Assembly: GCF_015207255.1 (NCBI RefSeq)
Contig: NZ_JADEXG010000020.1
Coordinates: 1-64,000, forward strand
Length of the DNA: 64,000 nt
Reading direction: 5' to 3'
Source of the DNA: Vasconcelosia minhoensis LEGE 07310
GTDB lineage: Bacteria > Cyanobacteriota > Cyanobacteriia > Phormidesmidales > Phormidesmidaceae
In this document: piece by piece, positions 21,270-25,113 of the stretch
Layout: each line of letters starts with the position of its first letter
How positions within the stretch are numbered: the first letter of the stretch is position 1
The notes under the pieces: generated by a model
What the model was told of the DNA's origin: nothing
The model's input: only the letters and a program-made list of their open reading frames with translations
The model's database searches: none
Translations under genes and position numbers: made by a program

Positions 21270-22160
21270 CTAAATCAATGCCCAGCGCCTGCGCCACTCG
21301 CCAGTAGAGGCGAGGGTTGAGGTTTGCTGCTCCAGCTGTCGTCGCTGTTGGATATCGTCAGCAGCAGCGCTCAGAGTGGGATCGCGGTAGGCCACAGCTG
21401 CTCGGGTGGTTAGGTGCTCCTGCTCTTGCTGCGGTAAGGCCGGTAGTCCACCCTCGTAGTTCGCCACTGTTCCCGGCCAGCGACGACCCGCCGTCGGGAC
21501 TGAGTCGATGGATAGACCCGCCAGCTTCAGGGCCGTGCGTACTGCTGCGGCGCAAGAATAGGTGGCCAGCCGCCCATCGGGCTTCAGGCACCGGGCAACC
21601 TGCTGGATAAACTCAACCGTCCAGAGCTGGGGACAGCGGGGTGGTGAGAACGGGTCGAGAAAAATGACGTCGGCCTGCCAGGCTTGGGCTGTGAGGGTTT
21701 GGATAGTTTGACGGGCATCGCCCAGTAGCAGCTGAGCCTGGATTGGAGCCGTCACTAAAGGGTTTGAAGCTGACGGGATTGCCTGGGTTTCGGCGATCGC
21801 GCTCAAAACTTGAGCAGTACGAGCTGACCAAGGTGGGGTGGAATTTTGCGCGATCGCGGCTCTCGGCACAGTCAGATCAATTTCCAAGGCAAACAATTCC
21901 ACTTGGCAGTCCGGGTTCACCTGCCAAATCGTCTCCAAAGCCGCCGCCGTGTTGTAGCCCAGCCCGTAGCAGACATCCAGGATGGCCAAATTCCCAAACT
22001 TTGCCCGCTCAGCCAGCTGCGTCGGTGCCACATAGGTCTGCTGCGCCTCCTGCCAGGCTCCGCCCCGGCTGTGGAAGCATTCGCCAAATTCTTCTGAGAA
22101 GAAAGTATTTGAGCCATCTTGGGTCGGAATCGGCGTAAATTGGCGCTTAGGCACGGACAT
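21270..22160 (-). CDS. MnmD-like tRNA methyltransferase (MnmC methylase-domain relative)
   Basis: 296 residues. The opening FTPIPTQDGSNTFFSEEFGECFHSRGGAWQEA and the SAM loop ILDVCYGLGYNTAAAL match the N-terminal domain of MnmC, and DPFSPPRCPQLWTVEFI is its signature. In MnmC this domain methylates the aminomethyl group of U34 in tRNA. The FAD oxidase half of MnmC is absent, as in stand-alone MnmD proteins. The C-terminal 50 residues are Gln-rich and divergent. Confidence 0.82.
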   Translation of the reverse strand: MSVPKRQFTPIPTQDGSNTFFSEEFGECFHSRGGAWQEAQQTYVAPTQLAERAKFGNLAILDVCYGLGYNTAAALETIWQVNPDCQVELFALEIDLTVPRAAIAQNSTPPWSARTAQVLSAIAETQAIPSASNPLVTAPIQAQLLLGDARQTIQTLTAQAWQADVIFLDPFSPPRCPQLWTVEFIQQVARCLKPDGRLATYSCAAAVRTALKLAGLSIDSVPTAGRRWPGTVANYEGGLPALPQQEQEHLTTRAAVAYRDPTLSAAADDIQQRRQLEQQTSTLASTGEWRRRWALI

Positions 22161-22288
22161 TGAGAGATGTGGAGATACTTTTACACACTATATTAGGCAA
22201 CGTTGGTCCGGTAGCTGAGCTTGGGCACTAGCTGGCAGAATAGGTACTCAGAACATCTAATTTATTTTCGATTCAATGGCAGTCAACC
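22161..22288. other. promoter region and original 5' end of the restriction gene
   Basis: The MnmD-like gene and the RM island diverge here. ATG 22276-22278 followed by codons for A-V-N is the likely original start of the restriction gene. The insertion at 22289 turns the next codons into P, G and a TAA stop (22294-22296). No strong ribosome-binding site is seen upstream of this ATG. Confidence 0.6.
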
Positions 22289-22463
22289 CAGGGTAAGCGC
22301 AAGAATCAATAAAGACTGCCTTATTGAGAAAAATGGCCGCGCCTATGTCAACAGGGTAAAGCTATTGAGAAAGGCGAGTACGAAAAACTGGGGCTTCTAG
22401 CCACGTCTGCAGCGCCCAAAAGCCAATGCATACTTTGGATACGATTTTCTTGCGCTTACCCTG
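22289..22463. mobile_element. 175-bp MITE-like element in the 5' end of the restriction gene
   Basis: Perfect 17-bp terminal inverted repeats: CAGGGTAAGCGCAAGAA at 22289-22305 and its complement at 22447-22463. The element is flanked by a perfect 10-bp direct repeat GCAGTCAACC (22279-22288 and 22464-22473), a target-site duplication. The inside has no usable frame and no transposase, so it must be moved in trans. CAGGG ends and an 8-10-bp duplication fit the ISAs1 family as I remember it. Removing the element and one repeat copy restores one continuous reading frame. Confidence 0.88.
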
Positions 22464-22514
22464 GCAGTCAACCTTGATAAGCCCCATCTTTGGAAAATAG
22501 ATATTGCTCAATCG

Positions 22515-23420
22515 GTGGATATGTATAACGACTGGTTTATGAATTTTGCTCCGAGGGCATTTCGAGAAACACGGATCGAGGTTACTAAAGATGTCGAAGC
22601 GACGCTGAGGGAAACGAATAACTTGACAAATGTTGCCCCTGCAATTTTACGTAAACATCCTGGAGTACTTCCTACTCTTAGAATGTCAACTTGTCCACCT
22701 TTGGCAGTTGATCGACTGATTGGCCTTGCAGCGATTCCAAGCAGCTTAGTCAAGAGAATGGAAAACAAGAAAAAACTGCCAGTTCGTCTCCGAGGAGCAG
22801 CCTTAGACATTGAACTTCAGAAGATTGGCGACATTATTGAGCGGATGGCAGATCCGGATATTTTTACATGGCTAAATCGAACTGAACCTCCTTTACAAGC
22901 TGAGATACGTCGTGCTGCTACCATTGTCGCAGATCGTCTATGCGGATCAGTCGCCAATCCTATTATCCGAAATGCCCAGGAAAAGAGACAGCTTGCAGCA
23001 ATTCAAAGCTGGCTTGAAACTTTCCAATACAGGAAACTAACAGTACAAGATGGTATGAAATTTAGTGACATGCCTCCTGGAACTTTTAGTTTTCGCATGA
23101 ATATACCTGTAACTCTAGAAACAGGAAAGATAATTAATATACCAATTGATGCTGTAATCAAGCCCAAATCGAGCCAAAGAAGAGAGATGCCCATTTTATT
23201 TGAAGCAAAATCTGCTGGCGATTTTACAAACGTTAACAAAAGGCGCAAGGAAGAGGCAATTAAAATGTCCCAATTGCGAAGAACATATGGAAATCAGGTA
23301 CGATTTAGTTTATTTCTCTGCGGCTATTTCGATAGCGGCTACTTAGGCTATGAAGCTGCTGAAGGGATTGACTGGGTTTGGGAACATAGAATCGATGATC
23401 TAGCTAGTTTTGGATTATAG
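22515..23420 (+). CDS. XamI-like type II restriction endonuclease, N-terminus displaced by insertion
   Basis: 301 residues from GTG 22515 (ATG 22521 next). The same frame is open leftwards across the target duplication and into the element to 22401. Joined to the original ATG 22276, the native protein would begin M-A-V-N-L-D-K-P-H-L-W-K and be about 18 residues longer. Recognisable: TLRMSTCPPLAVDRLIGLA, RAATIVADRLCGSVANPIIRNAQE, FEAKSAGDFTNVNKRRKEEA (a likely ExK catalytic pair) and LCGYFDSGYLGYEAAEGIDWVWEHRIDDL at the C-terminus. I place it in the XamI family (GTCGAC) from memory. It is AT-rich, unlike its neighbours. Whether the shortened product is made or active is unknown. Confidence 0.72.
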   Translation: MDMYNDWFMNFAPRAFRETRIEVTKDVEATLRETNNLTNVAPAILRKHPGVLPTLRMSTCPPLAVDRLIGLAAIPSSLVKRMENKKKLPVRLRGAALDIELQKIGDIIERMADPDIFTWLNRTEPPLQAEIRRAATIVADRLCGSVANPIIRNAQEKRQLAAIQSWLETFQYRKLTVQDGMKFSDMPPGTFSFRMNIPVTLETGKIINIPIDAVIKPKSSQRREMPILFEAKSAGDFTNVNKRRKEEAIKMSQLRRTYGNQVRFSLFLCGYFDSGYLGYEAAEGIDWVWEHRIDDLASFGL

Positions 23421-24996
23421 AGAGTTGAATATTAAAGAAATAGAAAAAAGGCGCTTTTTGTTGCAAGGCCAATTGGACGAGAAAAAAACTCAGAAAGAAC
23501 GCAATAAATTAGGCCAATTTTCAACGCCTATGACACTTGCAAAAAGCATTCTAGAGCACAGTATCCCCCTGCTCGATTGTGGTGAAAAAATACGTTTTCT
23601 AGATCCAGCTTTTGGTACAGGGGTTTTTTATTCTGCTCTTCTGAATGCGACTGGATCCGACTCAATTCTTTCGGCACAAGGCTTTGAAGTCGATCCATGT
23701 TATGGAGAAGCAGCAAAAGAACTGTGGAAAGAAACTCTTTTGAATTTGAAAATTTTAGACTTCACTAAATTATCTCCACCAAAACGGCAATCTGATTGTT
23801 TCAATCTCATTATTTGTAATCCCCCTTATGTGCGCCATCACCACATAGAAAGTGAGGAAAAGATAAATTTACGATATTTATCTAGTAAAGCTTGCGAAAG
23901 TAAAATAAGCGGTTTGGCTGGTTTGTACTGCCATTTTCTTTGCCTTTCTCATCCTTGGATGCAAAGAGGAGGAGTTGCTGCGTGGTTAATACCTAGTGAG
24001 TTTATGGATGTGAATTATGGCAAAGCCATCAAGCAATATCTTTTGCAAAAGGTAACACTTATTCAAATTCATAGATTTGACTATGAAGACACCAAGTTTG
24101 ATGATGCACTTGTGTCATCAGCAGTTGTTTGGATAAGAAATTCTCTGCCGCCTCCTAATCATAAAGTTTTATTTACTTTTGGAGAATCAATGCACTCGCC
24201 CAATATGTCTCGCCTAGTTAATTTGCCATGTTTGAAAGACGAGCCCAAATGGACACGCTTCCCATCTCTAGGCATCCGTGAAAAGGCCGAAAATCATTGT
24301 CTATCAGACCTATTCGAGATAAAGCGTGGGATTGCAACTGGCGATAATAAATTCTTTATTCTTACCAAGGAAAAAACCGAACATTATAGCCTTCCTGATG
24401 AATTCTTGCGTCCCATTTTGCCAAGCCCGCGATACATACTCGCTAATGAAATCCAAGCAGATCAGGAAGGGCTCCCTATACTAGAGCATCAGCTTTTCCT
24501 GTTAGACTGTCGTATTCCTGAGGAAGTAATTCGTGCGAAATATCCCAGTTTATGGAAATATCTTAAATCTGGGAAAGGTACTACGTCGGAGCGTTATTTA
24601 TGTCGTACTAGAAAAACATGGTATTTCCAAGAGAAGCGGTTGCCTGCACCAATTATTTGCACGTATCTAGGTAGAAAAAAAGGCGGCAATGAACGTGCTT
24701 TCCGATTTATTCTCAATTCATCTAAAGCTGTAGCTCCTAACGTTTACTTGCTTTTGTATCCTCGTGACACATTGAAATACTACCTTTCGCGAGACCCAAA
24801 TCAGATTCGACGAATTTGGGAAATACTCAATGCTTTGGAGCCCACCTCAATTTTAGAGGAAGGTAGAGTATATGGAGGAGGGTTACATAAGATAGAACCT
24901 AAAGAATTGGGAAATGTAAATGCTACAAGAATAGTCAATGCTATACCAAGCTATGCCAAAATATCAAAGGAAACTCAGCATAGTTTGTTTGAGTAG
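23410..24996 (+). CDS. N6-adenine DNA methyltransferase of the RM system
   Basis: 528 residues from TTG 23410, overlapping the restriction gene by 11 bp in another frame, which suggests translational coupling. No in-frame ATG occurs before the conserved LGQFSTP segment, so an upstream non-ATG start is required. SAM motif I is FLDPAFGTGVF and catalytic motif IV is NPPYV. The C-terminal half (about residues 290-520) looks like a target-recognition domain of the Eco57I/TaqI-like class. It appears intact. Base composition matches the restriction gene and not the genome around it. Confidence 0.88.
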   Translation: MDYRELNIKEIEKRRFLLQGQLDEKKTQKERNKLGQFSTPMTLAKSILEHSIPLLDCGEKIRFLDPAFGTGVFYSALLNATGSDSILSAQGFEVDPCYGEAAKELWKETLLNLKILDFTKLSPPKRQSDCFNLIICNPPYVRHHHIESEEKINLRYLSSKACESKISGLAGLYCHFLCLSHPWMQRGGVAAWLIPSEFMDVNYGKAIKQYLLQKVTLIQIHRFDYEDTKFDDALVSSAVVWIRNSLPPPNHKVLFTFGESMHSPNMSRLVNLPCLKDEPKWTRFPSLGIREKAENHCLSDLFEIKRGIATGDNKFFILTKEKTEHYSLPDEFLRPILPSPRYILANEIQADQEGLPILEHQLFLLDCRIPEEVIRAKYPSLWKYLKSGKGTTSERYLCRTRKTWYFQEKRLPAPIICTYLGRKKGGNERAFRFILNSSKAVAPNVYLLLYPRDTLKYYLSRDPNQIRRIWEILNALEPTSILEEGRVYGGGLHKIEPKELGNVNATRIVNAIPSYAKISKETQHSLFE

Positions 24997-25113
24997 TTAT
25001 GTGACTATAAGCTGACATTTTTTGGGGCAAACAGAGTAGAGTTTATTACATAGATTCGCAAAATGGGTAAGTGCTAACACTTTGAGAGAAAACTCAAGAT
25101 TAGGCATTAAGAA

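Follow-up and report, generated by a model that had tools for sequence, protein, structure and literature searches.

In the cyanobacterium Anabaena sp. 90, 15 of 147 MITEs are located in open reading frames and 13 restriction-modification (R-M) genes are pseudogenes (PMC3542288), and Nezha is cited as another cyanobacterial MITE (PMC10969869). MITEs in genes and R-M pseudogenes are therefore both known kinds of event in cyanobacteria, although a literature search of limited scope turned up no MITE reported at a restriction gene start and no direct precedent for a solitary methylase after insertion of an insertion sequence (IS). Here, we describe a MITE in the first codons of a XamI-family restriction endonuclease gene, located within a 64,000-nucleotide stretch of the Vasconcelosia minhoensis LEGE 07310 genome (the window; contig NZ_JADEXG010000020.1, positions 1 to 64,000). 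The locus is arranged as follows.

22276..22296, + strand: ancestral endonuclease start as judged from homologue starts, now a 6-codon open reading frame with its TAA inside the element
22279..22288, unstranded: left copy of the target-site duplication GCAGTCAACC, perfect over 10 bp
22289..22463, + strand: noncoding MITE of 175 bp, with 9 full-length copies in the genome
22289..22305, + strand: left terminal inverted repeat CAGGGTAAGCGCAAGAA, the same end being found on an ISAs1-family IS at C43:196015
22447..22463, - strand: right terminal inverted repeat, the exact complement of CAGGGTAAGCGCAAGAA
22461..22463, + strand: CTG supplied by the end of the element at the former ATG position, a possible weak start if used at all
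22464..22473, unstranded: right copy of the target-site duplication GCAGTCAACC, perfect over 10 bp
22464..23420, + strand: body of the XamI-family restriction endonuclease gene without the start codon, 318 codons plus stop codon TAG
22515..22517, + strand: GTG, the first conventional in-frame start after the insertion, with no Shine-Dalgarno (SD)-like sequence upstream
23425..24996, + strand: N6-adenine DNA methyltransferase gene (PF07669 Eco57I, E=3e-14), its start assigned by homologue comparison

Comparison of the two ends of the 175-bp element at 22289-22463 gives perfect inverted repeats of 17 bp, or 18 bp with one flanking C/G. An earlier note on this DNA had described the same element, ends and 10-bp duplication, and its coordinates proved exact when we re-derived the ends and repeats from the sequence. 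Taken literally, the direct repeat around the element is 12 bp (TGGCAGTCAACC), since TG stands both at the end of the element and in the target ahead of the site, but the duplication proper is 10 bp. The longest open frame inside the MITE is 45 codons, and the element contains no transposase. Scanning of the element and its flanks (22100-22560) detected no + strand promoter-like site and no terminator. An element-borne promoter reading into the nuclease gene was considered and rejected, the + strand being without any such site.

The identification as a MITE, suggested in the earlier note, is borne out by the rest of the 5.26-Mb genome, in which the element and its ends recur. Nine full-length copies are distributed over eight contigs, six of them 100% identical, one at 94% and two at 91%. 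Both flanks are readable at seven copies, five of which show a perfect 10-bp target duplication and two of which (L006 and L007) do not; the remaining two copies are located at contig ends (C77 and C116). Furthermore, the ends of the MITE also bound a 1345-bp IS at C43:196015-197359, which has a 10-bp duplication of its own (AGCACGATAC), encodes an ISAs1-family transposase (NF033564, E=1.1e-117) and has no second intact copy in the genome. The 20 bp CAGGGTAAGCGCAAGAAAAT, read inward at the right end of the MITE, are common to the end of the IS; outside these ~20 bp at one end, no further likeness between the two was seen. With nine copies, and 10-bp duplications both at five of these and at the likely parent IS, the element is not a chance pattern. 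The six identical copies suggest recent movement, and the 1345-bp IS is the likely parent and transposase source, whose transposase would have mobilized the MITE in trans.

Because the copies on C77 and C116 sit at contig ends, the repeat evidently breaks the assembly, and it could conceivably have been misplaced into the present locus. A misjoin, however, would not give a perfect 10-bp duplication with flanks that rebuild one conserved gene, and we regard an assembly artefact as extremely improbable. The insertion is known from one genome, and might be polymorphic in the population.

Relatives that match the MITE over its full length at 73-83% identity are found in other genera of the family, and a 147-bp version in genome G006 has a 10-bp duplication. 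The MITE family is new and may be unnamed. Three other copies in the Vasconcelosia genome, L002 (C112), L005 (C24) and L009 (C18), also break long open frames and have intact duplications; rejoined, these frames extend over 996, 285 and 452 codons, respectively. Together with the copy described here, they indicate that the family often lands in genes. The copy at G000:C18:24694-24868 has no target duplication and adjoins an ISAs1-type transposase remnant at 24887-24997, which may be left over from the origin of the MITE or of a composite.

The insertion point is just behind codon 4 of the endonuclease gene. From ATG 22276, the sequence now reads ATG-GCA-GTC-AAC-CCA-GGG-TAA, that is, six codons and then a stop, and removal of the element with one repeat restores this ATG to a single open frame (MAVNLDKPHLWKIDIAQSVDMYNDWF...) that continues to the end of the gene and begins M-A-V-N-L-D-K-P-H-L-W-K, both as previously proposed. 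When this restored N-terminus was aligned with homologues, which could instead have begun near 22515, 83 loci were found to keep it, beginning with M-x-V-N-x-D-K-P-x-x-W-K-x-D. Conservation among these loci is high at N4 (96%), K7 (94%), P8 (93%), W11 (96%), K12 (95%), D14 (98%) and S18 (96%), and the mean frequency of the commonest residue is 0.74 over the first 17 residues versus 0.76 over the Pfam domain. The codon before residue 2 is a start codon in 76 of the 83 (ATG in 67, GTG in 8 and TTG in 1); in the other seven, either the frame is broken or was wrongly chosen, or the codon there is not a start. At the ancestral start of the present gene, MxVNxDKPxxWK is found in the joined flanks only. 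Annotated Chroococcidiopsis and Psychrobacter plasmid genes start at the same codon as ATG 22276, and an annotated Corynebacterium plasmid homologue starts two codons upstream of that position. Judged by these alignments, the element struck the nuclease gene at its genuine 5' end. Ancestral starts other than ATG 22276 are without support among the 83 homologue loci. Of the two observations that would have spoken against the earlier note, namely homologues beginning near 22515 and the lack of another copy of the ends, neither was made.

The P-x-D...E-x-K motif of the nuclease (PID...FEAK) is intact in translation, and the PF09572 match extends over profile positions 1-256 of 256 (E=1.1e-119, 399 bits against a cut-off of 25). 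The next start had been placed at a GTG about 18 residues in, and GTG 22515 is indeed codon 19 of the original gene, followed in frame by ATG 22521. A protein started at GTG 22515 keeps the whole Pfam XamI domain, which starts at residue 52 of the translated stretch, yet it is deprived of 18 residues, of which seven are near-invariant. The absence of these seven makes loss or strong attenuation of the nuclease a well-supported prediction. An AlphaFold model of the nuclease (pTM 0.64, N-terminal pLDDT ~60) is too weak to judge the first 18 residues, and a Foldseek search of the model against the PDB gave no significant match, the best being BstEII (E=0.034).

Overlooked in the earlier reading was that the element ends in ...CCCTG, which places a CTG before GCA, in frame with the full gene. 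From position 22401 in the element to the end of the gene, the nuclease frame is uninterrupted, and CTG codons occur in it at 22407 and 22461, so that a rare start could yield full-length nuclease. The R-M system could then still work, at a low level of full-length nuclease from CTG 22461 or of a form with an extension encoded by the element from CTG 22407. The first of these codons is exactly at the start position and retains all conserved N-terminal residues, and the second has an SD-like GGGG ~8 nt before it. Neither the nuclease frame nor its catalytic motif is damaged, although this is expected anyway after a recent insertion. However, bacteria initiate poorly at CUG (PMC11497404), and CTG 22461 is without an SD and, in transcripts from the native promoter, is fully base-paired within the hairpin of the terminal repeats (unpaired probability 0.0). 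We therefore think it unlikely that the system works in this way; full-length nuclease may be made in trace amounts, but probably not in much greater ones. Still more improbable, in our view, is an arrangement in which the CTG start rebuilt by the CCCTG end within the hairpin acts as a translational dimmer, giving very low, structure-controlled amounts of full-length nuclease and coupled ribosomes that feed the methylase. Were this true, the R-M system would be tamed, not broken.

XamI is an isoschizomer of SalI, with the recognition sequence GTCGAC, and by family the endonuclease is predicted to be a GTCGAC cutter. GTCGAC occurs 65 times in the 5.26-Mb genome, or 12 per Mb compared to a median of 91 for 64 family genomes, and relative to the control palindrome CAGCTG this genome is the second lowest of the 64. 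Within the window, 2 sites are observed versus 17.3 expected from sub-words. This scarcity is suggestive, being compatible with prolonged exposure to a GTCGAC-cutting enzyme, but it is unspecific, because a relative without a XamI-family hit (G009) has fewer still, 15 in 4.9 Mb; in that genome, another GTCGAC-specific system or some other cause must act. GTCGAC avoidance as proof of past restriction was dropped for the same reason.

The methyltransferase gene downstream had been reported as intact, and its frame is uninterrupted, extending over 528 codons at its longest (from TTG 23410) and including the SAM-binding FLDPAFGTG and NPPY motifs. For its start, TTG 23425 is the best candidate; this codon lies 4 nt past the stop of the endonuclease, and both it and TTG 23458 are preceded by SD-like sequence. 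Of 81 homologous loci, 80 have the methylase after the nuclease, with a start that overlaps the nuclease stop or falls a few bases behind it; in the one remaining locus (G005), the two are a single polypeptide. Touching or overlapping gene ends usually mean translational coupling. Because the methylase starts of the family lie at the nuclease stop, we infer from this gene spacing that the methylase is probably translated by coupling to the nuclease frame, in which case loss of nuclease translation may lower the methylase too. A search for a promoter of the methylase alone found no + strand consensus in 22160-23500, where total sites were at shuffle level. Strong polarity on the methylase is countered by the lack of a terminator-like site in the element and of Rho in the genome (Rho is present in 9 of 14 control genomes). 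The G005 locus belongs to a same-family relative (C1479, 2380-4728; L040 / L146), in which XamI nuclease and methylase occupy one 874-aa frame, an apparent single-chain R-M fusion.

According to the earlier note, silencing of the nuclease would make a solitary methylase. The silencing is well supported as a probable loss or strong attenuation, given the seven near-invariant residues missing from a GTG 22515 product; the solitary methylase is one possible outcome among others, since coupling is probable. Under that outcome the nuclease would be dead and the methylase well made, by re-initiation or from a promoter within the nuclease gene, such that GTCGAC is methylated without restriction. An intact methylase frame with both motifs, the SD-like sequences before TTG 23425 and TTG 23458, and the many in-frame internal starts of the nuclease gene that could feed coupled translation are all consistent with it, whereas coupling is suggested by the family gene arrangement, the methylase starts with a TTG, and the + strand of 22160-23500 is without a consensus promoter. 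In addition, this methylase occurs in 11 other genomes of the class, and each of them has the nuclease beside it, which argues that lasting solitary versions are at most uncommon. We hold a solitary methylase to be a serious possibility, if short of probable. In two of these 11 genomes the XamI match is split over two frames beside an uninterrupted methylase match (L140 in G282 and L145 in G247); damaged nuclease genes or sequencing errors are possible there.

Alternatively, coupling could have turned both genes effectively off, leaving an R-M system in decay. The touching or overlapping R-M gene ends of nearly all homologues, the fusion in one relative and the lack of a + strand promoter-like site for the methylase alone point in this direction; internal re-initiation in the nuclease codons, or the SD-like sites of the methylase, could nevertheless keep the methylase on, and coupling itself is read from gene spacing. 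Silencing of the whole cassette is a tentative reading that we give odds similar to those of a solitary methylase, and both fit a nuclease that is off or nearly off.

The explanation that we favor, and consider quite probable, is that MITE insertion cost the nuclease gene its start, leaving the nuclease lost or at trace and the methylase with fewer coupled ribosomes. A 175-bp MITE, mobilized in trans by an ISAs1-family transposase, would have inserted into the XamI-type endonuclease gene (a predicted GTCGAC cutter) of an R-M operon just behind codon 4, duplicating 10 bp. Ribosomes from the native ATG would stop after six codons inside the element, and the rest of the gene, catalytic motif included, would be left without a start, any residual nuclease coming from the weak starts CTG 22461, GTG 22515 and ATG 22521. 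Transcription from the native promoter would probably still read through into the methylase gene, because the element has no terminator and the genome no Rho, and the methylase, starting at the nuclease stop, would receive fewer coupled ribosomes.

With one recent insertion and the rest undamaged, the locus offers an unusually clean snapshot of an R-M system that is starting to decay or to be tamed, and, given its R-then-M order, a nuclease knockout may cut back the methylase as well. The case further defines a recently active ISAs1-type MITE family, with six identical copies and several genes struck, for which the likely transposase source sits in the same genome. The MITE has in common with the ISAs1-family IS at C43:196015-197359 (NF033564) the CAGGG...CCCTG ends and the 10-bp duplication, but at 175 bp it has no transposase and only ~20 bp match one IS end. 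Cyanobacterial MITEs such as Nezha and those of Anabaena sp. 90 are likewise short, noncoding, hairpin-forming inverted-repeat elements, some of them in genes; however, the Anabaena MITEs have no matching IS in their genome (PMC3542288), whereas the present genome has an IS whose ends are the same as those of the MITE. The R-M genes resemble other XamI (PF09572) type II systems in protein family, R-then-M order and touching genes, but unlike in those homologues, the nuclease gene has been parted from its start codon by an insertion. Finally, the R-M pseudogenes of Anabaena sp. 90 similarly represent loss of R-M genes by mutation in a cyanobacterium; what distinguishes the present case is that one clean MITE insertion has hit the first codons of a gene that is otherwise intact.
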